NCBI GenBank assembly: GCA_014800785.1
Contig: JAAVFK010000003.1
Location: 80,183-115,241, forward strand
Source of the DNA: Bacteroidales bacterium
GTDB lineage: Bacteria; Bacteroidota; Bacteroidia; Bacteroidales; Muribaculaceae
Reading direction: 5' to 3'
Length of the DNA: 35,059 nucleotides
The position numbers and the translations under genes are program-made. The notes under the pieces are model-generated. The model made no database searches. It had not been told where the DNA came from and worked only from the letters and a program-made list of their open reading frames with translations. Below, piece after piece: positions 2,812-31,097 of this stretch; position 1 is the stretch's first letter, and the number at the start of each line of letters is the position of its first letter.

Positions 2812-4077
2812 TTATTGCTTTTTGCCGAGCACCTTCTCGTAGATGTCGATGACCTTTCGGCCGGCTTTCTCCCAGGTGATCTCGTGGATCTCCTCGATAC
2901 CCTTCTGCTTGAGGGTCTCGAACATTGCGGGATATGAGATGATCGAATGCATGGCGTCGGCCATTGCGTCGATGTCCCAGTAGTCGACCTTGATCACATT
3001 GTTGAGGATTTCGGCACATCCGGACTGTTTCGAGATGATTGACGGCACACCCATCTCCATCGCCTCAAGAGGCGAGATTCCGAAGGGTTCCGAAACCGAC
3101 GGCATCACGTAGACATCGCTGTCCCGAAGCATCTCGTACACCTCCTTGCCTTTGAGGAAGCCGGTGAAGTGGAACTTGTCGGCGATCCCGCGTTTTGCGG
3201 CGAGTTTGATCATATCGTCCATCATGTCTCCCGAGCCGGCCATCACGAAACGTACGTTCTTGTCTTTCTGAAGCACTTTCGCAGCGGCCTCGACGAAATA
3301 CTCGGGTCCTTTCTGCATCGTGATTCGTCCGAGGAAGGTGATCACCTTCTCGCGTCCCGTGCGACGTGGAAGTTCGAGCAGTTCCTTATCAAGAGGGATG
3401 ACGGCGTTGTGGACCGTCGTCACCTTGTCGGGGTTGATGCCATACTTCTCGATGACGGTCCGGCGTGTGAGGTCCGAAACGCAGATGATATGGTCCGCGT
3501 TCTCCATACCGTCTTTCTCGATGGCGAAGACGGTCGGGTTGACGTTTCCGCGTGACCGGTCGAAGTCGGTCGCGTGAACGTGTATCACGAGCGGTTTGCC
3601 GGTGATGTTCTTCGCGTGTATGCCGGCCGGATATGTCAGCCAGTCGTGGGAGTGTATGATGTCGCACTCTACCGTGCGGGCGATCACGCCCGCGACGATC
3701 GAGTAGTTGTTGATCTCTTCAAGCAGATTGTCGGGATAACGGCCCGAGAACTCGATACAGCCCAGGTCGTTCAGCCGGAGGTAATTGAAATCTGCATATA
3801 TATGGTCGCGGAGCTTGAAATACATTTCAGGATCCATCACGTTGCCGATGCGGTTGCTGACATAATCCCAGCTGACATCACGCCACGCTACCGGAACGTC
3901 ATTGGCTCCGAGGATGGTTGCGAAACCCTTCTCTTCGTCGCCCCAGGGTTTCGGAATCACGAACGTGATGTCCATGTCGCCATTGGCGTGCATGCCTTTG
4001 GTCAGACCGTAAGACGCAGTTCCGAGACCGCCGAGGATATGCGGAGGGAATTCCCAACCGAACATTAGTGCCTTCAT
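2812..4077 (-). CDS. Glycosyltransferase family 4, glycogen-synthase-like
   Basis: This is a 421-residue GT-B fold glycosyltransferase. The N-terminal domain begins with GWEFPPHILGGLGTASYGL, the glycine-rich nucleotide-sugar loop also seen in starch/glycogen synthases, and contains HSHDWLT. The C-terminal domain has FLGRITMQKGPEYFVEA and the E-x7-E motif in SEPFGISPLEAME, which contacts the sugar nucleotide. The conserved order debranching enzyme, GT4, GH57 in Bacteroidota supports a role in glycogen synthesis. The donor (UDP- or ADP-glucose) cannot be told from the sequence. The 84-bp gap to the GH57 gene suggests one transcript. Upstream, a MITE-like element separates it from the debranching gene. 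Confidence 0.9.
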   Translation of the reverse strand: MKALMFGWEFPPHILGGLGTASYGLTKGMHANGDMDITFVIPKPWGDEEKGFATILGANDVPVAWRDVSWDYVSNRIGNVMDPEMYFKLRDHIYADFNYLRLNDLGCIEFSGRYPDNLLEEINNYSIVAGVIARTVECDIIHSHDWLTYPAGIHAKNITGKPLVIHVHATDFDRSRGNVNPTVFAIEKDGMENADHIICVSDLTRRTVIEKYGINPDKVTTVHNAVIPLDKELLELPRRTGREKVITFLGRITMQKGPEYFVEAAAKVLQKDKNVRFVMAGSGDMMDDMIKLAAKRGIADKFHFTGFLKGKEVYEMLRDSDVYVMPSVSEPFGISPLEAMEMGVPSIISKQSGCAEILNNVIKVDYWDIDAMADAMHSIISYPAMFETLKQKGIEEIHEITWEKAGRKVIDIYEKVLGKKQ

Positions 4078-6377: not shown

Positions 6378-6408
6378 CAAAGATAGAAAATTGAAACAAA
6401 CTTTGCAA
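6378..6408 (-). promoter_or_regulatory. Promoter of the glycogen operon
   Basis: On the minus strand TTGC (6405-6408), 19 bp, then TATCTTTG (6378-6385) fits the Bacteroidota consensus. Transcription would begin near 6371, giving a leader of about 25 nt before the ATG at 6347. This is the main reason for preferring that start over the upstream in-frame ATG. Confidence 0.7.
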
Positions 6409-6423
6409 CTTTAAGGAAGTGTT

Positions 6424-6605
6424 AAATTTAATTTATACAATATGCGAGCTTATTTTTGAGGCGATTCCGGTGCGGAGCGAAGGAGAATATAAACATATTC
6501 GACTGAGCGACAAGTCGGAAGCGGCCAATTGAAAATCGACGAGTTCCCTTTAAAATATTAAAGGACGAGTCAAAAAGAAGCCGCAGATTGTATAAAAGAT
6601 TTTTC
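6424..6605. repeat. Dispersed non-coding repeat, copy A
   Basis: This copy starts AAATTTAATTTA and matches copy B (7073-7206) in the same orientation. Both share AATATGCGAGCTTAT, TTTGAGGCGATT, GGAGCGA, TATTCGAC, CAAGTCGGAA, CGGCC and the end TGTATAAAAGATTT; I estimate roughly 80% identity over the first 105 bp. Copy A carries about 45-50 extra bases near 6527-6580. Neither copy has a convincing ORF. Copy A lies directly upstream of the glycogen promoter. Confidence 0.7.
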
Positions 6606-6755
6606 TTCATTTACTATCGTTTAAATTTGAACACTTACTTATACTTACTTATTATCGCAACAACTGAACCAATAATCTTGTTTGCAGAAGATATCCTCGA
6701 ATATACCTAAATGTAAGGTGAATTGTTGCCCGTTACGGCCGACTGGCGACTGCAG

Positions 6756-6853
6756 ATGTAGGGACATCGCTTTGCGATGTTTCAAACGCCTGATGTCTAC
6801 GGCGTAACCTCCTATACGCGTGAAATACATGCCAAAGGCCTCTGTTCCTACAA
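6756..6853. repeat. Small hairpin repeat (REP/MITE-like)
   Basis: The stretch begins with TGTAGGGAC just before 6764 and ends GTTCCTACA at 6845-6853, an imperfect terminal inverted repeat. Inside the left end is a 7-bp hairpin, ACATCGC-TTT-GCGATGT (6764-6780). It resembles short extragenic palindromic repeats. It lies just beyond the end of the truncated adaptor ORF, where an intact HlyD gene would continue, so it may mark the break. Only one copy is in the window, so its repetitive nature is inferred. Confidence 0.4.
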
Positions 6854-6884
6854 AAGCACATAATTTAATTATGGAACTAAAACC

Positions 6885-7043
6885 TTATTTATCAAGAAGT
6901 ATTTTGAAAAGTATGAAAACAATTACAGAAATAATGAAGAGAACGGTGATACCCCACCTGACAATCCAATGGGGCTTCTCATTAAGTATTTCTCTTATCC
7001 GGTTACTTCTTAATTCAGACTTCGATTTCGTGTTGGTCTTCAT
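6885..7043 (-). CDS. 52-residue membrane peptide resembling the N-terminus of an HlyD-family adaptor
   Basis: The minus-strand ORF from the ATG at 7043 encodes 52 residues. A basic cytoplasmic head (MKTNTKSKSELRSNRIREIL) is followed by EKPHWIVRWGITVLFIIS and a single transmembrane helix (about 30-50), then a stop. The pattern I-x-E-I-L-x-x-x-P-x-W-I-V-R-W-G-I-T-V is how HlyD/membrane-fusion adaptors begin in Bacteroidota bacteriocin exporters; those run on for about 350-400 residues through lipoyl and barrel-sandwich domains, which are absent. It lies downstream of the C39-ABC gene, where the adaptor gene normally sits. It is either a decayed hlyD or a retained mini-protein. No continuation of the adaptor is visible after the stop. 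Confidence 0.6.
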   Translation of the reverse strand: MKTNTKSKSELRSNRIREILNEKPHWIVRWGITVLFIISVIVFILFKILLDK

Positions 7044-7072
7044 ATAATTTGTTCTTTCGTAAGTAAGTATCC

Positions 7073-7206
7073 AAATTTAATTTATTCAATATGCGAGCTT
7101 ATATTTGAGGCGATTTATGTGTGGAGCGAGCGAGGATATAAGCCTATTCGACGGAACGGCAAGTCGGAAACGGCCAAAAATATTCGCAGGATGTATAAAA
7201 GATTTA
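7073..7206. repeat. Dispersed non-coding repeat, copy B
   Basis: This is the shorter copy of the repeat at 6424-6605, in the same orientation, lying between the ABC transporter stop and the ATG of the HlyD-like mini-ORF. Both copies are bordered by runs of AAGTAAGT/ACTTACTT (7060-7069 beside B, about 6636-6655 beside A). Because the two copies bracket the mini-ORF, recombination between direct repeats is a possible route for loss of adaptor sequence. Confidence 0.7.
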
Positions 7207-7264
7207 CAGTCACTTGCTATAGGTTAAGTTTAAAAATTTGCCTTTTAAGTTCTAATATGATAGA

Positions 7265-9460
7265 TCAGTTGGCAATTTCCAATTGTTTGGAAACCAAACG
7301 TCGGTAATACCCATTTAGGGCAACAAGCTCTTCATGGGTTCCTTCCTCTACGATTTTTCCCTTTTCCATAACGATTATATGGTCTGCAGTTCTTACGGTG
7401 GACAACCTATGGGCAATTATCACCGCCGTACGTCCTTTCATGAATTGATTCAGATTGGATACGATGGTCGCTTCGTTTTTCGCATCTAGGGAATTGGTCG
7501 CTTCATCCAAAAAAAGATAGTCCGGATTTCGATACATCGCTCTGGCAATCAGGATACGTTGTCTCTGACCTAAACTTAATCCGTGACCGTCTGCTCCGAT
7601 TTTAGTTTCATACTTCAAAGGAAGTTTTTGAACAAAGTCGTCAACACAAGCTAACTTGGCAGCATGTCTCATTCGGTCAAGATCAATCTCTCCATCAGTA
7701 CATGCAATATTGCGTGTAATAGACTCTGAGAATATTACGCCCTCCTGCATAACCACTCCCGTTTTCTGTCGCCATTTGTCAATCGCGTATTCTTCGAGAG
7801 AGTGATTGCCTATGCTGATAGTGCCTTCTCCTATCTTGTAGTAGCCTAATAGAAGTTTGACAAGAGTGGTTTTGCCGCTTCCCGATTCTCCTACAATTGC
7901 GGTTATTTTACCACCTTTTATCTTCAAGTTTATGTCCGATAAAGTAGAATCGAGTGCGTGAGGATCGTATTTAAAACCTACTGAACTCAAAATTATATCT
8001 TCTCCACTGGGAATGTCATCTAATTCTCCCCACTCATCGCTTTCCTCCCTGCTTGCATGAATATTATTAATTCGGTCAAGCGATATCCGGACGTCCTGGA
8101 GTGCATATATGAAGCCAATGAATTGTTGTACCGGACCATTTAATTGTCCGACAATGTATTGAATAGCCATCATCGCACCTAGGGTGATATCGCCTTTAAC
8201 GACGGCAGTCGCGGCGATAACTGTGATGAGAATATTTTTAATCTCATTAATTAAAATAACCCCTGCCTCTTGGTTCTGCTGAAGACGGGTACCTTTCATT
8301 TCAACTTCGAAAAGGTCGGCCTGTTTGTCTTCCCATTCCCATCTTCGTCTGTTTTCACAGGCTTGAAGTTTTATTTCGGGAATAGAGGTTAAGAGTTGAT
8401 AGGTCAGATTACTGTTTAGTGACTGTTGCTCAAAAATTTCATAGTCAAGGATTTTCCGTTTCTTTAGAAATAGAGCGACCCAACCTGCGTATAGTAAAGC
8501 TCCGGCAATAAAAACGATGAATATGATGCGATTGTAAATCAAGAGTACGATGCTGAATACAATAAATGATATGCAAGCAAAGATAATCCCGATTAGTTGA
8601 CCGGTGAGAAACGATTGGATTCGACCATGATCCCCCATACGTTGAAGCAGGTCTCCTGTCAGCTTTGTATCAAAAAACTTCATCGGCAGTCTGAGAAGCT
8701 TGATGAAGAAATCACTCAACATGGAAATGTTGATTCTCATTGATACATGAAGTATCACCCACCGTCTGATAAAGTCTATAGCGGCTTGACCGATCACGAT
8801 CATCAGTTCTCCCAAGAGTATCAACCATATCAGACCGATGTTCGAGTCATGAATACCCTTGTCTACAATGTTTTGGGTTAGAAAGGGTATTACGAGTAAA
8901 AAGAGCATTCCGAGCAACATTCCAAGTAAAAGTTGTCCGAAATAATGTTTGTACTCCTTGACGTATCCTAAAATAAATCGGAAAGTTCTTTTTTCGCCCG
9001 AGATTTCTTTAACATTAGAGTTGAAAAAATCGTCGGTTGTTTCGAAGAACACCCCAAGACCTTTTTCGTTACCATCCGTTGTGATCGATACCCAATGCTT
9101 TAATAGGTCGTCGCGGTGGCATTTATAGAGGCCTTTGGCCGGATCTGCAATATAAAAAGTCTTACCATTCTTAGAAACTTTATATAATACCACATAGTGA
9201 TTCTGATTCCAATGAATAATGGCGGGGAGTGGTGCGACCGTGAGACTGTCTAACGATACTTTTCCGGCCTTAGGAATCAGACCTAATGACTTTGAGGCAT
9301 CTGTTAGACCTTTCATTGACACTCCCTCTTTCGTGGCATGACAGAATTGAGAAACCTCTGTCATAGAGGTTTCTCTTCCTAAAGCATTGCAGACCATGGT
9401 CAGCGCAGCAATGCCACACTCCATCGAGTCGTGTTGACGGTAAAATCGGAATCTTCCCAT
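7265..9460 (-). CDS. C39-peptidase ABC exporter (bacteriocin/RiPP processing transporter)
   Basis: This 731-residue inner-membrane protein should cut the leader from a peptide and export the core. The N-terminal C39 domain has its full triad: Cys15 in DSMECGIAAL, His88 in HWNQNHYVVLY and Asp106 in IADPAKG. A six-helix ABC transmembrane domain follows (about 160-450). The ATPase domain has Walker A GESGSGKTT (about 523), signature LSLGQ (about 627), Walker B LFLDEATNSLD (about 643) and the H-loop AHRLST. It begins 28 bp after the outer-membrane gene and is clearly part of the RiPP operon. Nothing in it is degenerate, so the exporter itself looks functional. The adaptor partner expected next to it is reduced to a fragment. 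Confidence 0.93.
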   Translation of the reverse strand: MGRFRFYRQHDSMECGIAALTMVCNALGRETSMTEVSQFCHATKEGVSMKGLTDASKSLGLIPKAGKVSLDSLTVAPLPAIIHWNQNHYVVLYKVSKNGKTFYIADPAKGLYKCHRDDLLKHWVSITTDGNEKGLGVFFETTDDFFNSNVKEISGEKRTFRFILGYVKEYKHYFGQLLLGMLLGMLFLLVIPFLTQNIVDKGIHDSNIGLIWLILLGELMIVIGQAAIDFIRRWVILHVSMRINISMLSDFFIKLLRLPMKFFDTKLTGDLLQRMGDHGRIQSFLTGQLIGIIFACISFIVFSIVLLIYNRIIFIVFIAGALLYAGWVALFLKKRKILDYEIFEQQSLNSNLTYQLLTSIPEIKLQACENRRRWEWEDKQADLFEVEMKGTRLQQNQEAGVILINEIKNILITVIAATAVVKGDITLGAMMAIQYIVGQLNGPVQQFIGFIYALQDVRISLDRINNIHASREESDEWGELDDIPSGEDIILSSVGFKYDPHALDSTLSDINLKIKGGKITAIVGESGSGKTTLVKLLLGYYKIGEGTISIGNHSLEEYAIDKWRQKTGVVMQEGVIFSESITRNIACTDGEIDLDRMRHAAKLACVDDFVQKLPLKYETKIGADGHGLSLGQRQRILIARAMYRNPDYLFLDEATNSLDAKNEATIVSNLNQFMKGRTAVIIAHRLSTVRTADHIIVMEKGKIVEEGTHEELVALNGYYRRLVSKQLEIAN

Positions 9461-9488
9461 ATGTACGGAAGGAATATTGAACTATATA

Positions 9489-11750
9489 CTACTTCATTAA
9501 TGATTGGTCTTTGGTTACGCTTTCGATTTTCTGATCTTGTTGTTTCCGTCCATAACGAATAGTATAGGTTACACTCAGATTTACATCGGTCGAGGAAAGA
9601 TTAGAGTAAGACATTATATTATAGCTGTAGAGATTATTAGGAGTTCTACCCCAAGCGTCGTGATGTTTTCTCTTGTTGAAGGGATTGTTTACATTCATTT
9701 GGATAGCCCAATTACCATACACTGCCAAAGCGGCCACGCCATATTTTATTGTCTCTCTTCCGTAACCATCAAAGCTGTAATACGCCATGGGTGATTCAAC
9801 GTATGCTAAAAGCATATAATGATTGTGACTCCATTGACCCCGGATATATCCATACGGTCTGAATTTGTTTTTATTTACGGGATACGTTTTTTTAATATTA
9901 TAAATATATCCACTCCCGGTAACTCCAAACTCTTTGGAAATATTCCAAGTAACCGAAGCCCCTAACTTGTTTTCAAACCAATCGACTCCACCATTATATC
10001 CTAACGTAAGTCCGGAACCGTTCTCATTCAAAGAGGCTGTCTGATAGGGAAGATCGAACTGATAAAATGATTTTAAGTAAACGTTAAATGATATATTTTG
10101 ATGCCACCAGCTGTAGCTTAGATTCCACAGTACTACTGGAGAAACCCCAAGATTAGGATTTCCCTCCTCCCAAAGAAGAAGATTTCGTTGAATTCTGGTA
10201 GGATTAACCTGGGCAAGATTGGGACGTCCCGAAGCATAATTTATGTCTGCTGAGAATTGTTGATTCCTGCCGGGATTCCATGTAAATATTATATATCCTG
10301 ATGGAATAAATTTAGAAATGCCATATTGAGAGTGGCGAATATCAGATTTGTTATATATCATTCTTGAGGCCACGGATAGTCTGCCTGTGTTCCAAATATA
10401 TGTATAACGGGCCTCCAGTTTTGAATAAATGTTTTCAATACGACTTCCTTCACCAACGGATCCTTCATAGCTTAGATTGTAAAGGTCATATTTTCCGTAG
10501 GCATTAATGCTTAATTGATGCTTTTGACTAAAATTCTTGGTGAACCAAATGTCAAGTGTGGAGTTGTTACCTGTCTCTTTTGTTTGATAGTCATTCTCAA
10601 AAATCAGATCATTATTTTGAAATTGTTTCTGTAATTGATGAGAGTTATTCAAACGAAAAAGGGTAGATGCCGTGACGTAGAGGGCTGTGTTATGAGGGAG
10701 ACTGACATATAGGTTTCCATCCCATCCCGGGTTTAATGTCTTGCTGTGCGTTCCGTACTGAGAAAGAGCTTCAATTGTCTCAGTAGGGGTATCATAAATT
10801 GTGAGGCCTCTATTTGTTTCCCAAGGAGTAAGAGAGTGAGATAAGGACAACCTATTTTTGAATTGGACCTTCTCAGTCTGATACAACGCAGAGAAATAAC
10901 CTGTTTCCGAAGTTGTTCTTCCTTTAGGACGGTTATTTATTGTAGTGACGCTACAGTCATTCCCATCTATGTTTAAATTTTGAATCGATTCCGAATTGGA
11001 AAAATCCTGGTCATAACGGGAATTGACATAAAGAGAGTAGGTCATGCGTTTATAAGTAAATCCGGAGTTGACAAATCCTCCACCTCTCCATGAGGGAGCG
11101 CTTCCGTCAACGCGAACTTTAGTATAACCACCCCAAAGATATTTTGTGACAACATAATTGATGACATTTTTCGCACCAAGGAATTTGGCATCAGAGGGCT
11201 TCTCAAGGACCTCAACTTTATCAACGTCTGTCGGAGCAATAACTGCAACATCTTCTGCCGTGGCAGGAAGTCCGTTAATAAAATATGAAACTTCCTCTCC
11301 GGAGGTAGTCTGGACGCTGTTGTTCATGAAATTTACATTTAAGCTCGGGATCATCATGCGAGCCAACAGGGAGACACCATCTGTCGCAAATTTCTTCTGA
11401 TTTTTATCGGGAGTGTATGCTATGCCATCTTTAAGTCTTGTTTCACGTGAGGCTACAATTACGACTTCGTCGAGATTGTAAGTGGACAATGCCGTAGTGT
11501 CTGCTGTCTGATCATATTGCACATCCTGATTTTCCTGAACCTGACTCACAGAATCGCTTGGATTTATTGAAGGCACGTTTTCACTAATTTTATCCAAGCC
11601 GGAAGTCTCGGCAGATGCCGACTGCACGGAATCCGTTGACTGTTGTACGGCCACAACCAAATTATGTGAAGGAGAAGCTGAAGCATCTAAACCGATATAG
11701 CAGCAGACTCCAATAATTATCAAAGTGATGATAGTCTTGATGTGTTGCAT
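9489..11750 (-). CDS. TonB-receptor-like outer-membrane beta-barrel protein of the RiPP cluster
   Basis: The protein has 753 residues. An N-terminal hydrophobic stretch (about 5-20) looks like a signal peptide. A Ser/Gln-rich linker leads to LDEVVIVASRET (93-104), like the start of a TonB plug, and then to a plug-like domain (about 105-215: LLARMMIPSLNV, YFINGLPATAEDV, VEVLEKPSDAKFLGAKNVIN). The rest is a large barrel of alternating aromatic and polar strands, closest in style to the outer-membrane beta-barrel family PF14905. It lacks an N-terminal carboxypeptidase-like domain and a SusD partner, so it is not a standard nutrient receptor. Its position between maturase and exporter suggests a role in release, uptake or immunity for the peptide. 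The family call is firm; the role is inferred. Confidence 0.8.
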   Translation of the reverse strand: MQHIKTIITLIIIGVCCYIGLDASASPSHNLVVAVQQSTDSVQSASAETSGLDKISENVPSINPSDSVSQVQENQDVQYDQTADTTALSTYNLDEVVIVASRETRLKDGIAYTPDKNQKKFATDGVSLLARMMIPSLNVNFMNNSVQTTSGEEVSYFINGLPATAEDVAVIAPTDVDKVEVLEKPSDAKFLGAKNVINYVVTKYLWGGYTKVRVDGSAPSWRGGGFVNSGFTYKRMTYSLYVNSRYDQDFSNSESIQNLNIDGNDCSVTTINNRPKGRTTSETGYFSALYQTEKVQFKNRLSLSHSLTPWETNRGLTIYDTPTETIEALSQYGTHSKTLNPGWDGNLYVSLPHNTALYVTASTLFRLNNSHQLQKQFQNNDLIFENDYQTKETGNNSTLDIWFTKNFSQKHQLSINAYGKYDLYNLSYEGSVGEGSRIENIYSKLEARYTYIWNTGRLSVASRMIYNKSDIRHSQYGISKFIPSGYIIFTWNPGRNQQFSADINYASGRPNLAQVNPTRIQRNLLLWEEGNPNLGVSPVVLWNLSYSWWHQNISFNVYLKSFYQFDLPYQTASLNENGSGLTLGYNGGVDWFENKLGASVTWNISKEFGVTGSGYIYNIKKTYPVNKNKFRPYGYIRGQWSHNHYMLLAYVESPMAYYSFDGYGRETIKYGVAALAVYGNWAIQMNVNNPFNKRKHHDAWGRTPNNLYSYNIMSYSNLSSTDVNLSVTYTIRYGRKQQDQKIESVTKDQSLMK

Positions 11751-11789
11751 AGTTTGAATTGTTTAGTGATAAGTCCTTAAATTTGAAAT

Positions 11790-11917
11790 ATCGCAGGGAG
11801 TTGAAGAATGATTCCCTGCGATTTATTCTTACGGTACGGATTATTTACTATAGAAGTTCTTTAGAGTTTTGTGTCTGACAGTATTCTCCATACTATTTGA
11901 AAATTTTATGGAGAATA
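11790..11917 (-). promoter_or_regulatory. Two intergenic hairpins between the maturase and outer-membrane genes
   Basis: Within a 171-bp gap there are two strong inverted repeats: a 10-bp stem ATCGCAGGGA/TCCCTGCGAT (11790-11799 with 11813-11822) and an 11-bp stem TATTCTCCATA/TATGGAGAATA (11882-11892 with 11907-11917). Neither has a long T-tract on the minus strand, so they may be attenuators, RNA-processing sites or mRNA stabilisers rather than full terminators. I see no consensus promoter for the downstream gene. Confidence 0.5.
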
Positions 11918-11921
11918 ATGA

Positions 11922-13226
11922 TCAGGCTATAATTAATCTGTTTTTTAGGACTTCATTTTCGTGAATATATGCAAGTATTTCGTACTCGAAGCTCATGTCG
12001 GCTTTGTCTAATTTGCAATAAGAGAGTCTTTTGACATGATCGCGTGGACATATTCCCATACAGATGGGAAGATACTTGCAAGCTATACATTTCTCATTTT
12101 CAAATGTAGGCTTGTCATACTCCGTGCCTCGGGAATCATGCCAAGACACTGAACCCTCATTGTTAAGACTCCCTAAGCCGTTCGGAGTGTACATATCGTC
12201 ACATGCAGTGCATTTTACAACAGTTCCATTATAATTGGCTGTTAGAAAGTTGGAATTGTTGGTATAGCATGGACGAAAATCGAGGACCAGGGCCTCCTTT
12301 TTTACAAAAAAGCCCTCTTTCTCAAACTTTCCCCAAATATCTTCATAGCCTATGCGTTTGGTTTTATCCGGTTCTTCCTGCCAAACCTTTCTTGGGAAAA
12401 TTTGAATTCGATCTCTAAGATTCTGAGGCACTCTTTCGCAAACTTCCCCAACAATTCTTTCATCCATTGAATCATAGGTGTAGTTTATACGTAGAGTTAC
12501 CTGCATATCAGGTATGTTGTTTAACATTTCCACAATATGCTTCAGTGCGCGGTCAAATGCGCTGTCGCACCCTTTTTGAAATTTTACCTTATCGTGATTT
12601 TCCCGATTACCGTCAAGTGTGATCTGGAAATGATTGAAGTTATACTTTCCTAATTCCTCACTGACTTTTGATGTAAGAAAGTATGCATTAGATGTGGCAC
12701 CTTGAGAATAAGGCTTATTTACTTTTTCGCAAATATCCTTTATTCTTTTTGAGAGCGGAAGAACAATTTTAGAGAAGTACATCAATGGCTCTCCTCCAAA
12801 CCATTCTATTCTTAGATCGGAGATCTCTTCACTACCCATCTTTATTTCAAGATGTTTGATGATATTGTCCATAACCTGTTCCGACATTAAAGATGTGATA
12901 TGGTCTTGAATGCAATACCAACATTTATAATTGCAGTTCAGTGTAGGAAGAATCTGAAGTGTATAGGAGGATGTATTAGATGCTTTTTGATGGTAATCCC
13001 TGATAACGGTAAGCTCATCAAAATCATCATCTATAATCATCCCTGATGCTTTTAATTGGTCAAGAAAAGTATCGGGTAAAAGATTATAGTTGCCTGAATT
13101 AAGAGTCTGTTCTACCTTATCGCTTAATACTCTTGGGAGTTTAAAAAATGAACGAGTCAGAGCATTGAACCAATAGTTATGGCCTTGCGAATCCGGTATT
13201 ATGTGTATATAGTTACTTGTTTTCAT
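11922..13226 (-). CDS. Radical SAM/SPASM peptide maturase
   Basis: The protein has 434 residues. The N-terminal 85 residues form a small domain with NYWFNALTRSFFKLP, possibly a leader-binding (RRE-like) region. The radical SAM core starts at LPTLNCNYKCWYC with the cluster ligands Cys98, Cys102 and Cys105, followed by WFGGEPLMY, a typical GGE motif. The C-terminal SPASM domain follows the seven-cysteine pattern exactly: Cys320-x13-Gly334-x4-Cys339, then Cys380-x2-Cys383-x5-Cys389-x3-Cys393, then Cys404; Cys342 is extra. Such enzymes bind auxiliary [4Fe-4S] clusters and install thioether, C-C or similar crosslinks in RiPP precursors. The adjacent Cys-rich precursor suggests sulfur-to-carbon links, but chemistry cannot be read from sequence. 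Confidence 0.93.
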   Translation of the reverse strand: MKTSNYIHIIPDSQGHNYWFNALTRSFFKLPRVLSDKVEQTLNSGNYNLLPDTFLDQLKASGMIIDDDFDELTVIRDYHQKASNTSSYTLQILPTLNCNYKCWYCIQDHITSLMSEQVMDNIIKHLEIKMGSEEISDLRIEWFGGEPLMYFSKIVLPLSKRIKDICEKVNKPYSQGATSNAYFLTSKVSEELGKYNFNHFQITLDGNRENHDKVKFQKGCDSAFDRALKHIVEMLNNIPDMQVTLRINYTYDSMDERIVGEVCERVPQNLRDRIQIFPRKVWQEEPDKTKRIGYEDIWGKFEKEGFFVKKEALVLDFRPCYTNNSNFLTANYNGTVVKCTACDDMYTPNGLGSLNNEGSVSWHDSRGTEYDKPTFENEKCIACKYLPICMGICPRDHVKRLSYCKLDKADMSFEYEILAYIHENEVLKNRLIIA

Positions 13227-13247
13227 TCGTATAGAGCCAAAATTAGG

Positions 13248-13282
13248 GAATTATGTTAGGGGATTATCCCCTAACATAATTC
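13248..13282 (-). terminator. Perfect 16-bp hairpin between precursor and maturase (attenuator)
   Basis: GAATTATGTTAGGGGA (13248-13263) pairs exactly with 13267-13282 around a 3-nt loop. It begins 11 nt beyond the precursor stop and ends 21 nt before the maturase ATG. On the minus strand it is followed by CCTAATTTTGG, a weak U-tract. It probably acts as a partial terminator or an exonuclease block, giving much more precursor mRNA than enzyme mRNA. Confidence 0.7.
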
Positions 13283-13293
13283 TTCAGACATAC

Positions 13294-13590
13294 TTAGGAG
13301 TTGCCACAAGAAGAGGTGGAGTGCGTAAAGCACGTTAATTGCTCACAGGATGCATGAGTCATATGGCATGTTGTCCCCTGAGTGATAATTGTGCATCCGC
13401 TGTTTGAACCACAATTTGCCGTGTGGGTGGGACAAGGGCACTGAGTATTGGATATGCAGGAATCTTGACACGACTCGTCTGTAACGCTACAACCATTGTT
13501 TGTTGCGTTCGGGCTTCCGAAGCCTGCAACAACTTCAAGCTGCTCCAACTCCTGCAACTCTTCGATTGAGAATTGGGCTGAATTCTTCAT
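13294..13590 (-). CDS. Cysteine-rich RiPP precursor peptide
   Basis: This is a 98-residue peptide. The leader (1-23) contains FSIEELQELEQLEVVAG. Set against the double-glycine leader pattern it has Gly-1, Ala-2, Val-4, Glu-8 and Leu-12, so cleavage by the C39 domain is predicted after Ala22-Gly23. The 75-residue core holds 11 Cys (34, 41, 45, 51, 53, 60, 66, 75, 82, 87, 95), many Thr, Ser and Asn, several His, and no Lys or Arg. The odd Cys number argues against simple full disulfide pairing and suits enzymatic modification. It is the first gene of the operon and immediately precedes the SPASM maturase. I recognise no named family with this core; Bacteroidales GG-leader natural-product precursors are the nearest class. 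Confidence 0.85.
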   Translation of the reverse strand: MKNSAQFSIEELQELEQLEVVAGFGSPNATNNGCSVTDESCQDSCISNTQCPCPTHTANCGSNSGCTIITQGTTCHMTHASCEQLTCFTHSTSSCGNS

Positions 13591-13598
13591 ATTTTACA

Positions 13599-13657
13599 TA
13601 ATAGGAGTCCTTTGATTATATTCATGGCTCGGTGCTCCTATTAACGAGGTCCATGAA
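13599..13657 (-). promoter_or_regulatory. Structured 5' UTR of the precursor: hairpin with pseudoknot potential
   Basis: In the minus-strand RNA, UUCAUGG (13657-13651) and CUCG (13648-13645) pair with CGAG (13631-13628) and CCAUGAA (13627-13621), an 11-bp stem with a 2-nt bulge. The 13-nt loop contains UAAUAGGAG (13643-13635), fully complementary to CUCCUAUUA (13607-13599), which lies 8 nt before the start codon. The 9-bp loop pairing would form an H-type pseudoknot over the ribosome-binding region. An AUG-UAA start-stop pair also sits at 13600-13595. Confidence 0.6.
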
Positions 13658-13713
13658 AAGTCTATAAGTCCGGTACTTTGAATTATTTAGCTAGCTAATT
13701 TTTATAGACGCTT

Positions 13714-13744
13714 CAAAGTTAAGATAATTTTAACAAACAAACAA
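13714..13744 (-). promoter_or_regulatory. Promoter of the RiPP operon
   Basis: On the minus strand TTGT (13741-13744), 19 bp, then TAACTTTG (13714-13721) matches the Bacteroidota consensus. Transcription would start near 13707, giving a leader of roughly 115 nt that contains the hairpin/pseudoknot described at 13599-13657. Confidence 0.65.
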
Positions 13745-13986: not shown

Positions 13987-14304
13987 ATGATATTATCAAA
14001 TAAATCTTTGTCTACTCCGGACGTAGTGCGGAATCTTGGTTTGAGGTTCCGTGACTACAGGTTGCGGATGAGGATGACCCGAAAAGAGGTTTCAGTGGCT
14101 GCATCAATTGGTATGACCACACTCTACAAGTTTGAGACAGGCAACATGACCGATATCTCATTTAGTACACTGCTAAGATTATTGAGGGTCATAGGACTTG
14201 GTGAGAACTGGGAGTCATTGCTGCCGGAGTTGCCGGAATCGCCATATATGTATGACGACAATGATAAAAAAATTCAGCGGGTGAGACACTCTTCAAAAAA
14301 GTGA
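13987..14304 (+). CDS. hipB: HipB-like XRE-family helix-turn-helix antitoxin
   Basis: This 105-residue protein has a Cro/C1-type helix-turn-helix: LGLRFRDYRLRMRMTRKEVS, then VAASIGMTTLYKFETGNMTD with the recognition helix around residues 40-50, then SFSTLLRLLRVIGL. HipB proteins neutralise HipA and repress their own operon by binding palindromic operators. The stop codon (14302-14304) precedes the toxin ATG by 5 nt, the tight coupling expected of a toxin-antitoxin pair. The charged C-terminal tail (about 85-105) is probably disordered. The role comes from the neighbour and the fold; the specific operator is unknown. Confidence 0.85.
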   Translation: MILSNKSLSTPDVVRNLGLRFRDYRLRMRMTRKEVSVAASIGMTTLYKFETGNMTDISFSTLLRLLRVIGLGENWESLLPELPESPYMYDDNDKKIQRVRHSSKK

Positions 14305-14309
14305 TTGTT

Positions 14310-15803
14310 ATGAAGCATCTGAAGGTAATATTGTGGGGTCAGGAAATCGGACGTCTCGTTTATGATTCTGCAACGAGACGTATATATTTCATGTATAATC
14401 CGAAGTTAGGCAATATCCCCGATATTGCACCTCTGTTGTCGTCACCGAAGAACCGCAACATTTTTTTGCCTGTATATGGGGATGAACGGCCACTATATCA
14501 GGGATTACCACCATTTATCGCAGACTCACTGCCTGATTCGTGGGGTAATACGCTTTTTGATAAATGGGTTAAGGATAATAGGATACCTCGCAACAAAGTC
14601 ACTCCTCTTTATAAGCTGATGTTCATAGGCACACGAGGAATGGGTGCTTTAGAATATGAGCCATACGCAGAAGATCTCACACATAATCGTAAGATCGATA
14701 TAAAATCGTTGTACGATATGTCTCTGAATATTCTTGAAGACAGGGACAAGACAGTTCTAAACAGTAATGAAGAACTGACATTACAGGCACTTCTCGCGGT
14801 TGGTACTTCAGCCGGAGGCAGGCAGATGAAAGCTATTGTCGCTATAAATGGGAAAACCGGAGAAATACGTTCCGGTCAGACCGACAACCTTGACGGTTTC
14901 GACTATTATATCCTGAAATTCGGTGATAAGTCTATGCCGATTGCTGAAATTGAGACCGCTTATTTCAATATGGCTGTCGCTGCCGGAATCACTATGGAAG
15001 AATGTCGCTTACTATCGGTTGATGGAATTAACCATTTCCTTACGAAACGATTTGATAGAGCCTCGGGAAAGAAGATTCATATGCAGACTTTGGCAGCGAT
15101 AAATCCCGAAGCCCGCAGTTATGAAGACCTCGTGGCTATATGTCGGGAACTTTCAATTTCTGAGTCAGAGATTGAAGAGCTTTACCGCCGTATGGTTTTT
15201 AATGTTATGACCAACAACACTGACGATCATAATAAAAACTTCGCGTTCCTTCTTGAAGAAAATGGTAGGTGGCAACTGGCTCCGGCCTATGATATAACTT
15301 TCATTTTCAACATCAACGGAACCGGACCCAATATCGAACGAAGATTGAGCATATGTGGCAAAACAAGCGGTATCACAAAGGCAGACTTACTCGATTTCGC
15401 TAAACAAAACGGAATTAAGAATGCCAACTCAATGATAACCCGAATTGCGGAGGCTATCAAGGATTTCAATCGGTTGGCGACCGAATATGGTATCACCCAA
15501 CCGTGGCGAAGCATCATTCAGAAAACTCTAACCGAAAACCTCATTGCATTCGGTTATCAAGAAAAAGAGGATGAGGTATATTCTTCGTTCAATGACTTAT
15601 TTGGAAGAACCATTGATAATCTTTCCCTTGCTGTTAATTCCAAAGGTCATATTGAAGTCTCGGCGCTTATCAATGGAAAACGTCACCGAAGATTCATTCG
15701 TCCGAATATGCCAATCTATTCCGACCTGATGAAGCAAGACATTTTTAGCCTCCAAATCCAGGAGAAAATACGATTAGTAGAAAATCTCTTCCCTTTGGAA
15801 TAA
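14310..15803 (+). CDS. hipA: HipA-family serine/threonine kinase toxin with C-terminal extension
   Basis: HipA kinases phosphorylate targets such as aminoacyl-tRNA synthetases and slow growth. From the ATG at 14310 this is 497 residues; a GTG at 14301 overlapping the hipB stop is an alternative start. The N-terminal subdomain (1-100) has LPDSWGNTLFDKWV. The kinase part has the glycine-rich loop VGTSAGGRQMKA (about 164-175), YILKF, HFLTKRFDR, the catalytic loop NNTDDHNKNF (about 301-310) and PAYDIT (about 325-330), all intact. Typical HipA proteins end near 430-440 residues. Here residues about 415-497 add a segment with NLSLAVNSKGHIEV and KRHRRFIRP whose role I do not recognise. It forms an operon with hipB and is divergent from the RiPP cluster. 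Confidence 0.88.
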   Translation: MKHLKVILWGQEIGRLVYDSATRRIYFMYNPKLGNIPDIAPLLSSPKNRNIFLPVYGDERPLYQGLPPFIADSLPDSWGNTLFDKWVKDNRIPRNKVTPLYKLMFIGTRGMGALEYEPYAEDLTHNRKIDIKSLYDMSLNILEDRDKTVLNSNEELTLQALLAVGTSAGGRQMKAIVAINGKTGEIRSGQTDNLDGFDYYILKFGDKSMPIAEIETAYFNMAVAAGITMEECRLLSVDGINHFLTKRFDRASGKKIHMQTLAAINPEARSYEDLVAICRELSISESEIEELYRRMVFNVMTNNTDDHNKNFAFLLEENGRWQLAPAYDITFIFNINGTGPNIERRLSICGKTSGITKADLLDFAKQNGIKNANSMITRIAEAIKDFNRLATEYGITQPWRSIIQKTLTENLIAFGYQEKEDEVYSSFNDLFGRTIDNLSLAVNSKGHIEVSALINGKRHRRFIRPNMPIYSDLMKQDIFSLQIQEKIRLVENLFPLE

Positions 15804-30630: not shown

Positions 30631-30674
30631 CGAAATACCTAAAAAAACAGTAGTATTTTAATTAACCAACAGCA

Positions 30675-30959
30675 ATGACAAAAGCAGATATTGTCAACGA
30701 GATTTCCCGCAGCACCGGTATCGAGAAAGCTACCGTGCTTCAGACCATTGAGAAGTTCATGGAAGTAATGAAGGATACGATGTCCGACGGCAATAACGTA
30801 TACCTCCGTGGCTTCGGCAGCTTCATTATCAAGACCCGCAAGGCCAAGACAGCCCGCAACATCTCGAAGAACACCACCATTCTTATCCCCGAGCACAAGA
30901 TCCCCGCTTTCAAGCCCTCGAAAGTTTTCCTTGAGCAGGTGAAAGAGAATGACGCTTGA
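30675..30959 (+). CDS. HU/IHF-family DNA-binding protein
   Basis: The 94-residue nucleoid protein bends DNA as a dimer. It shows MTKADIVNEISRSTGIEKATV, the GFGSF turn preceding the DNA-binding arm, and ARNISKNTTILIPEHKIPAF, with the Pro that intercalates at the arm tip, then KPSKVFLEQV. Its length and arrangement are normal. In Bacteroidota this gene commonly precedes the RNase G gene, as here, with a micro-protein gene between them. Confidence 0.95.
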   Translation: MTKADIVNEISRSTGIEKATVLQTIEKFMEVMKDTMSDGNNVYLRGFGSFIIKTRKAKTARNISKNTTILIPEHKIPAFKPSKVFLEQVKENDA

Positions 30960-31007
30960 TATCAGCAAGAATATTATATAAAATAAAATCATCAAACAAT
31001 AACCATT

Positions 31008-31097
31008 ATGCCCAGCGGAAAGAAAAGAAAAGGCCACAAGATGGCTACGCACAAGCGTAAGAAAAGACTGAGAAAGAACCGTCATAAGAAGAAATAA
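31008..31097 (+). CDS. 29-residue AURKAIP1/COX24-like basic protein
   Basis: The ATG at 31008 opens a 29-codon reading frame ending at TAA 31095-31097. The product starts MPSGKKRKGHKMATHKRKKR and ends RKNRHKKK, so two thirds of the residues are Lys, Arg or His. This matches the short bacterial proteins annotated as having an AURKAIP1/COX24 domain, related to the C-terminal motif of the mitochondrial small-subunit protein mS38. A ribosomal role is therefore likely but inferred. It lies 48 bp after the HU gene and upstream of rng. Its conserved size makes it easy to miss. Confidence 0.85.
   Translation: MPSGKKRKGHKMATHKRKKRLRKNRHKKK

Follow-up and report, generated by a model that had tools for sequence, protein, structure and literature searches.

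How does a ribosomally synthesised and post-translationally modified peptide (RiPP) cross the outer membrane when the adaptor behind its exporter ends after its transmembrane (TM) helix? This question is raised by a gene cluster of a Bacteroidales bacterium (Muribaculaceae; assembly GCA_014800785.1), located in a stretch of 35,059 nt (contig JAAVFK010000003.1, positions 80,183-115,241), hereafter the window. A preliminary description made from the sequence alone had proposed a five-gene unit on the minus strand, and all five open reading frames (ORFs) are present at that place and intact:

13294..13590, minus strand: RiPP precursor, 98 aa (alignment with 14 relatives)
11922..13226, minus strand: radical SAM/SPASM maturase, 434 aa (profiles, alignment, fold)
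9489..11750, minus strand: TonB-dependent-receptor-like outer-membrane protein (profile, model)
7265..9460, minus strand: C39 peptidase-containing ATP-binding cassette (ABC) exporter (PCAT), 731 aa (profiles, conserved residues)
6885..7043, minus strand: micro-adaptor, 52 aa (profile of full-length adaptor N-termini)

The gene set probably serves to produce a Cys-rich peptide, to tie it up chemically and to export it. The precursor, maturase and C39 exporter adjoin, which supports the reading as a RiPP operon. Relatives carry these gene types too; the arrangement is therefore not due to chance, and the combination is not unique.

In the exporter, Q9, C15, H88 and D106 of the C39 domain and five residues of the ABC motifs are identical in all 103 aligned PCATs. 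The small gene behind it encodes the N-terminal segment and the one TM helix of an HlyD-type adaptor (membrane fusion protein, MFP) and ends after the helix; the periplasmic domains that bridge towards TolC are missing. A survey covered 106 PCAT loci, namely the window, 5 named loci, the top 60 by rank of 130-odd order-wide matches and 40 from a genus search. An adaptor-like gene follows the PCAT in 92 of them, in three length classes with no lengths in between: 37 micro (47-103 aa, the window's included), 16 short (153-226 aa) and 39 full-length forms (428-469 aa). No adaptor was called behind the remaining 14, 4 of which had less than 100 bp of contig remaining. Within the genus sample, micro forms follow 31 of the 40 PCATs and short or full-length forms none, and in 9 an adaptor was not found. 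A profile of the 39 full-length N-termini picks up, at E <= 0.01, 37/37 micro forms (E 1.1e-15 for the window's) and 16/16 short ones; among 740 shuffled stubs, 2 reach this threshold, the best at 0.0093.

The preliminary description had called the small gene an adaptor remnant. Decay of the adaptor in a dying system would agree with the length of 52 aa against 428-469 aa in full-length forms, with the lack of the PYPYSxGESI-like tail motif that 22/37 micro forms carry, and with a repeat element lying between stub and PCAT. This interpretation is contradicted by the size of the micro class, by the empty range between 103 and 153 aa and by ratios of nonsynonymous to synonymous substitution rates (dN/dS) that stay well under 1 between closely similar micro genes: the ten nearest pairs give 0.16-0.33, and the highest value among the 25 pairs listed out of 113 is 0.47. 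The intact PCAT and maturase count against a dying system as well, and decay is therefore very improbable. Judged by these comparisons, the stub belongs to a class of genes that this lineage maintains and that bears signs of purifying selection; it is no remnant. A disrupted maturase or exporter in related strains had been named as a finding that would refute the preliminary description. Both are intact in the window, and both lie in several ORF pieces in a related cluster of Porphyromonas crevioricanis (L008), owing to decay or an assembly error.

The candidate for the outer-membrane step is the third gene of the operon. Its product has an N-terminal hydrophobic segment, a plug (about residues 102-203) and a strand-rich C-terminal part. 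The single-sequence match to the Pfam Plug family is no more than suggestive (E 0.014, under the cut-off), whereas at E <= 1 a profile of 18 homologous barrels matches 8 distinct PDB sequences, every one a ferric enterobactin receptor. A plug domain of TonB-dependent receptors is indicated both by this receptor profile (best E 1.5e-5) and by the plug being the confident part of the structural model. OMP_b-brl_3 is matched at E <= 0.001 by 5/18 barrels, the window's not among them, and a single-sequence PDB search with the window's barrel protein gave no matches.

Barrel genes are associated with the reduced adaptors, micro and short. The test in the order sample included 46/60 loci, leaving aside 10 with less than 2200 bp upstream and 4 with no adaptor called. 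Of the reduced systems, 12/13 have a barrel no more than 2 kb upstream, against 4/33 of the full-length ones (Fisher p 5e-7). On a tree of 103/106 PCATs, three changes account for the three adaptor classes and two for reduced versus full-length; a test of independent pairs has a single pair when limited to well-supported branches and 2 when all branches are used (p = 1). Repeated independent evolution of stub and barrel was rejected as unsupported, the changes on the tree being too few. What the PCAT tree shows is a stable old association in essentially one lineage rather than repeated invention. In the genus sample, a barrel was called in 21 of 27 testable micro loci. As a separate observation, L156, L157 and L158 contain a radical SAM gene, two similar genes of 481-494 aa and a PCAT, with a stub in two of the three and no adjoining barrel called.

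The preferred, still tentative reading is that of a horizontally acquired RiPP cluster with thioether maturation, cleavage after VVAG, export into the periplasm by stub and PCAT, and exit through the barrel. The C39 domain of the PCAT would cleave the precursor after VVAG, and the exporter would move the peptide over the inner membrane. The micro-adaptor, an HlyD-type N-terminal segment with a TM helix, may be kept as a small PCAT subunit that docks to the exporter. Since a stub of this length cannot span the periplasm, the peptide would be released there and would leave via the co-encoded barrel rather than TolC. Passage of the outer membrane through this TonB-receptor-like barrel would make export a two-step process.

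The barrel may instead be an uptake receptor, in which case the peptide would be secreted otherwise, bind a metal or act as a signal, and re-enter through the barrel. The solved relatives of the barrel profile are import receptors, and a core of 11 Cys without Lys or Arg could bind metal. Uptake leaves unexplained why barrels accompany reduced rather than full-length adaptors, though largely within one lineage, and no importer is found among the scanned neighbours (a helix-turn-helix (HTH)/HipA pair, a BrkB-type gene and three glycogen-type genes). This alternative is considered rather unlikely.

Several observations weigh against exit through the barrel and a functional stub. The AlphaFold2 model of the barrel protein is poor (mean predicted local distance difference test score (pLDDT) 35.2; plug blocks 63-76, barrel part below 50); it was rejected as a source for the barrel fold, since the plug alone is usable and fold matches of the model carry little weight. 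Four full-length systems also carry a barrel, and the barrel association cannot count as independent evidence, given only two to three changes of adaptor class over the PCAT tree. Six of the 27 genus micro loci are without a called barrel. A closer look revealed barrel pieces in L142 and L155, a barrel on the opposite strand in L153, and no barrel in L135, L157 and L158; the caller overlooks fragments and diverged barrels. The tail motif is absent from 14 other micro forms besides the window's, and most of the micro pairs used for dN/dS are near saturation at synonymous sites. Elsewhere in the window's genome there are 16 matches to TolC-type OEP domains, 14 of them above the cut-off. Several genus genomes give weak matches to generic adaptors, and the window's genome is 91% complete, so that a missing adaptor could sit in a gap.

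A further alternative is exit via TolC in trans, a generic adaptor from elsewhere being recruited by the PCAT, with the stub as a small regulatory subunit and the barrel providing self-immunity or another service. Such an exit is possible because OEP domains are encoded at several other sites in the genome, and in the colicin V system TolC is encoded elsewhere, according to PMC10352776. Against it stands a search of the window's genome with the full-length adaptor profile, which at E <= 0.001 finds nothing but the stub. Exit in trans is judged distinctly improbable. Among the 101 genus genomes, one (G084) is matched across most of this profile (G084:C22:22221-23408, E 1.5e-44), and the remaining matches are stubs or partial and weak.

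The peptide itself can be described from its precursor. The leader is MKNSAQFSIEELQELEQLEVVAG, and the core begins with FGSPN after VVAG, a division already proposed and borne out by the alignment with double-glycine (GG) leaders. All 11 Cys lie within the 75 residues following VVAG, a stretch without Lys or Arg, and the core has two Phe and neither Trp nor Tyr. In the alignment with 14 relatives, M1, F7, L18, G23 and C34 are invariant; leaders are conserved and cores variable, as expected of RiPPs. The conserved leader, variable core, adjoining maturase and C39 exporter place the locus among RiPP clusters with a GG-type leader and a PCAT.

No NCBIfam family, the CefA precursor profile (NF038108) included, matches the window precursor at E <= 0.1, and the Cys gaps of this precursor are irregular rather than fixed at every fifth residue. 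NF038108 matches 2 of 15 members of the precursor family (best E 0.0035), and one relative precursor, L042, has Cys at every fifth residue. Cys contexts were counted over 17 distinct cores, the window's included (L004/L037 and L005/L006 share cores, each counted once). Ser or Thr precedes Cys at position -4 in 55/129 cases (expected 27.5) and Gly at -1 in 48/129 (expected 17.6); Asn is preferred at +2 and +3, and the next Cys follows five residues on in 31/117. The window core follows the -4 preference, with S/T/D/E at 8/11 Cys (expected 4.5). A Cx3[D/T/S] acceptor rule was also considered: S/T/D/E stands at +4 in 8/10 cases in the window (expected 4.0) and in 28/109 in the other 16 cores (expected 30.8). 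It was dropped as a family rule because those cores are at expectation and many offsets had been inspected.

The maturase is a radical SAM/SPASM enzyme, its CxxxCxxC motif and seven SPASM Cys being invariant across 23 aligned homologues. Among the 25 best NCBIfam families listed for it, the sole cut-off passed is that of the generic SPASM-domain model TIGR04085 (35 vs 27 bits). The nearest maturase models, TIGR04463 (E 1.7e-40), CefB NF038107 (E 1.3e-39) and Clo7bot, all remain far under their cut-offs; the curated values missed are 525 bits for TIGR04463 (score 139.1), 600 for NF038107 (136.3) and 600 for TIGR04334 (134.2). Over the 23 homologues, the lowest E-value again belongs to TIGR04463 (4.9e-48). 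CefB (NF038107) and TIGR04463 are the best-scoring NCBIfam profiles for the maturase; the window precursor matches no precursor family, that of CefA (NF038108) included. The preliminary description had found no named class that fits and had named a match to a characterised family as the outcome that would overturn it; neither precursor nor maturase gave such a match.

A single-sequence PDB search with the maturase gave no matches. By profile (E 8.7e-25) and by fold (E 2.2e-12) alike, the closest solved relative is 5wgg/5why, whose title refers to thioether bond formation and which is presumably CteB. It differs in its precursor and shares 17% identity in the fold alignment. The structure 8vpo is a close second by fold (E 3.6e-12), and further matches of the model include anSME and the epimerase EpeE. 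The mean pLDDT of the model is 71.9, with a low SPASM part. Residues 7-60 are predicted to form three strands and then helices, a pattern of the N-terminus (about residues 1-60) that we take to resemble a RiPP recognition element.

The radical SAM/SPASM enzyme would bind the FSxEELxELExL-type leader in the cytoplasm and use some of the 11 core Cys to form thioether cross-links. Going by the sequence and the model, thioether formation is the best guess for its chemistry. The enzyme may also perform another reaction, such as epimerisation or formation of carbon-carbon links, with the Cys forming disulfides. SPASM-type enzymes are chemically diverse, as the matches to anSME and EpeE illustrate; the two Phe and missing Trp and Tyr of the core, and a thioether maturase as best match by both sequence and fold, argue for thioethers, and other chemistry is not very probable.

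The non-coding features of the operon are as follows:

13714..13721, minus strand: promoter-like TAnnTTTG element (TAACTTTG; motif)
13248..13282, minus strand: hairpin directly 3' of the precursor, 16-bp perfect stem, loop of 3 (shuffles)
11882..11917, minus strand: hairpin between maturase and barrel genes, 11-bp perfect stem (shuffles)
7065..7260, minus strand: intergenic repeat copy A, between PCAT and micro-adaptor (sequence matches in the genome)
6420..6640, minus strand: intergenic repeat copy B, downstream of the operon (sequence matches in the genome)

An own promoter and several RNA structures had been proposed. For the first, a promoter-like element was found ahead of the precursor, reading from 13721 to 13714; TAnnTTTG is, we assume, the -7 motif of Bacteroidota. 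Of the second, two stems stand, each reached in 0/200 dinucleotide shuffles. The hairpin after the precursor may hold the precursor transcript above that of the maturase. Among loci with a gap of at least 40 nt between precursor and maturase, a stem reached by at most 2/200 shuffles occurs in 7/10 (window included), with differing sequences, and a clear stem is missing in L007, L038 and L046; L050, with a true gap of 34 nt, lies outside this count. Where the precursor stands behind the maturase, the stem is clear in L042, borderline in L047 (6/200 shuffles) and absent in L004/L037 and L044. The hairpin as a conserved sequence was rejected, since only the presence of a stem recurs.

On the sequence evidence, the operon belongs to a recurrent Bacteroidales RiPP family. 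One scan of genome contigs gave 7 loci with maturases at 32-45% identity, and maturase matches occur in 49/101 genus genomes at E <= 1e-20 and in 15/393 genomes of the order sample at E <= 1e-40, the window's genome included in both. Among 27 relative loci, several of which stop at a contig edge, BLAST with the window's precursor found a precursor in 18; a PCAT or part of one is present in 13, a micro-adaptor in 5 and a short adaptor in 2. One of the loci, L042 (G018), is a sister operon with a CTGNS-type repeat precursor, found at the opposite end of a block of glycogen genes that resembles the block next to the window operon. At 3031-3816, L054 has four tandem small Cys-containing ORFs with GG leaders ahead of a radical SAM gene. 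L003, recorded as Lachnospiraceae, is a Bacteroidales-type cluster, perhaps from a mislabelled or mixed metagenome-assembled genome.

The region 6381-13744 has a GC content of 0.39 against 0.52 in the flanks, in line with the acquisition suggested earlier from its AT-richness. The flanking genes, for a glycogen debranching enzyme and a BrkB-type membrane protein, were both found in 53/61 genus genomes, the window's included. In 32/53 they are immediate neighbours, 153-594 bp apart; in 10/53 they share a contig without being neighbours (the gap is 9464 bp in the window and 9411 bp in G047), and in 11/53 they lie on separate contigs. With the junction closed in 32 genomes, an insertion in the window's genome, or loss in the others, is well supported. 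The HTH/HipA-type pair (13987-15803) lies within the same insertion, beside the RiPP promoter; the ORF list holds no further genes of at least 90 aa in the insert, integrases not having been searched for. The 9.4-kb gap at the same junction in G047 (G047:C6:37675-47086) marks a possible insertion hotspot. Counting itself and the related copy B, repeat copy A is matched 8 times in the window's genome, at 72-100% identity. The window contains no tRNA gene, and an Rfam scan of it found RNase P only. Elsewhere in the window, an AT-rich ORF of 148 aa (30639-31085; GC 0.43) has no Pfam match at E <= 0.001.

Among known systems, BGC6-BGC9 (Fernandez-Cantos et al. 2023, PMC10352776), as described in that paper, resemble the window in having a GG-type precursor, a PCAT and an outer-membrane protein, with a radical SAM enzyme in BGC6-8; no MFP was identified by the authors in BGC6-9. 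Going by description, the loci studied here differ in carrying a short or micro adaptor gene immediately behind the PCAT, and the window operon in lacking YcaO and in its Cys-rich core. The colicin V type PCAT-MFP-TolC system, as outlined there, shares GG-leader cleavage and export by the PCAT; the window differs in having no full-length MFP behind the PCAT and a receptor-like barrel in the operon. For Myxococcus, PMC6434023 describes PopC secretion that needs the TonB-dependent transporter Oar and passes through a periplasmic intermediate. This parallels the proposed route, with a periplasmic intermediate and then exit needing a TonB-dependent barrel. The substrate is a protease and neither PCAT nor RiPP is involved; the likeness drawn here is one of route.

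The cluster is therefore a known kind of system, a PCAT-exported radical SAM RiPP, and TM-stub adaptors with receptor-like barrels were not seen described in the literature searched; no report of stub adaptors was found in the PMC literature searched, which does not prove that none exists. The 2023 survey of Bacteroidales RiPPs left open how the product is exported from clusters that pair a PCAT with an outer-membrane protein and in which no adaptor was detected (PMC10352776). Two shortened adaptor classes, down to a TM stub, beside receptor-like barrels are a recurrent candidate for the missing export part. A broader and more doubtful proposal is that an old Bacteroidales exporter lineage swapped the PCAT-MFP-TolC conduit for release by stub and PCAT and dedicated secretion through a barrel, a receptor fold having been turned into an exporter. 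The activity of the product would most likely lie in competition between related bacteria. The finding makes the outer-membrane step testable and points to an uncharacterised family of Cys-rich RiPPs.

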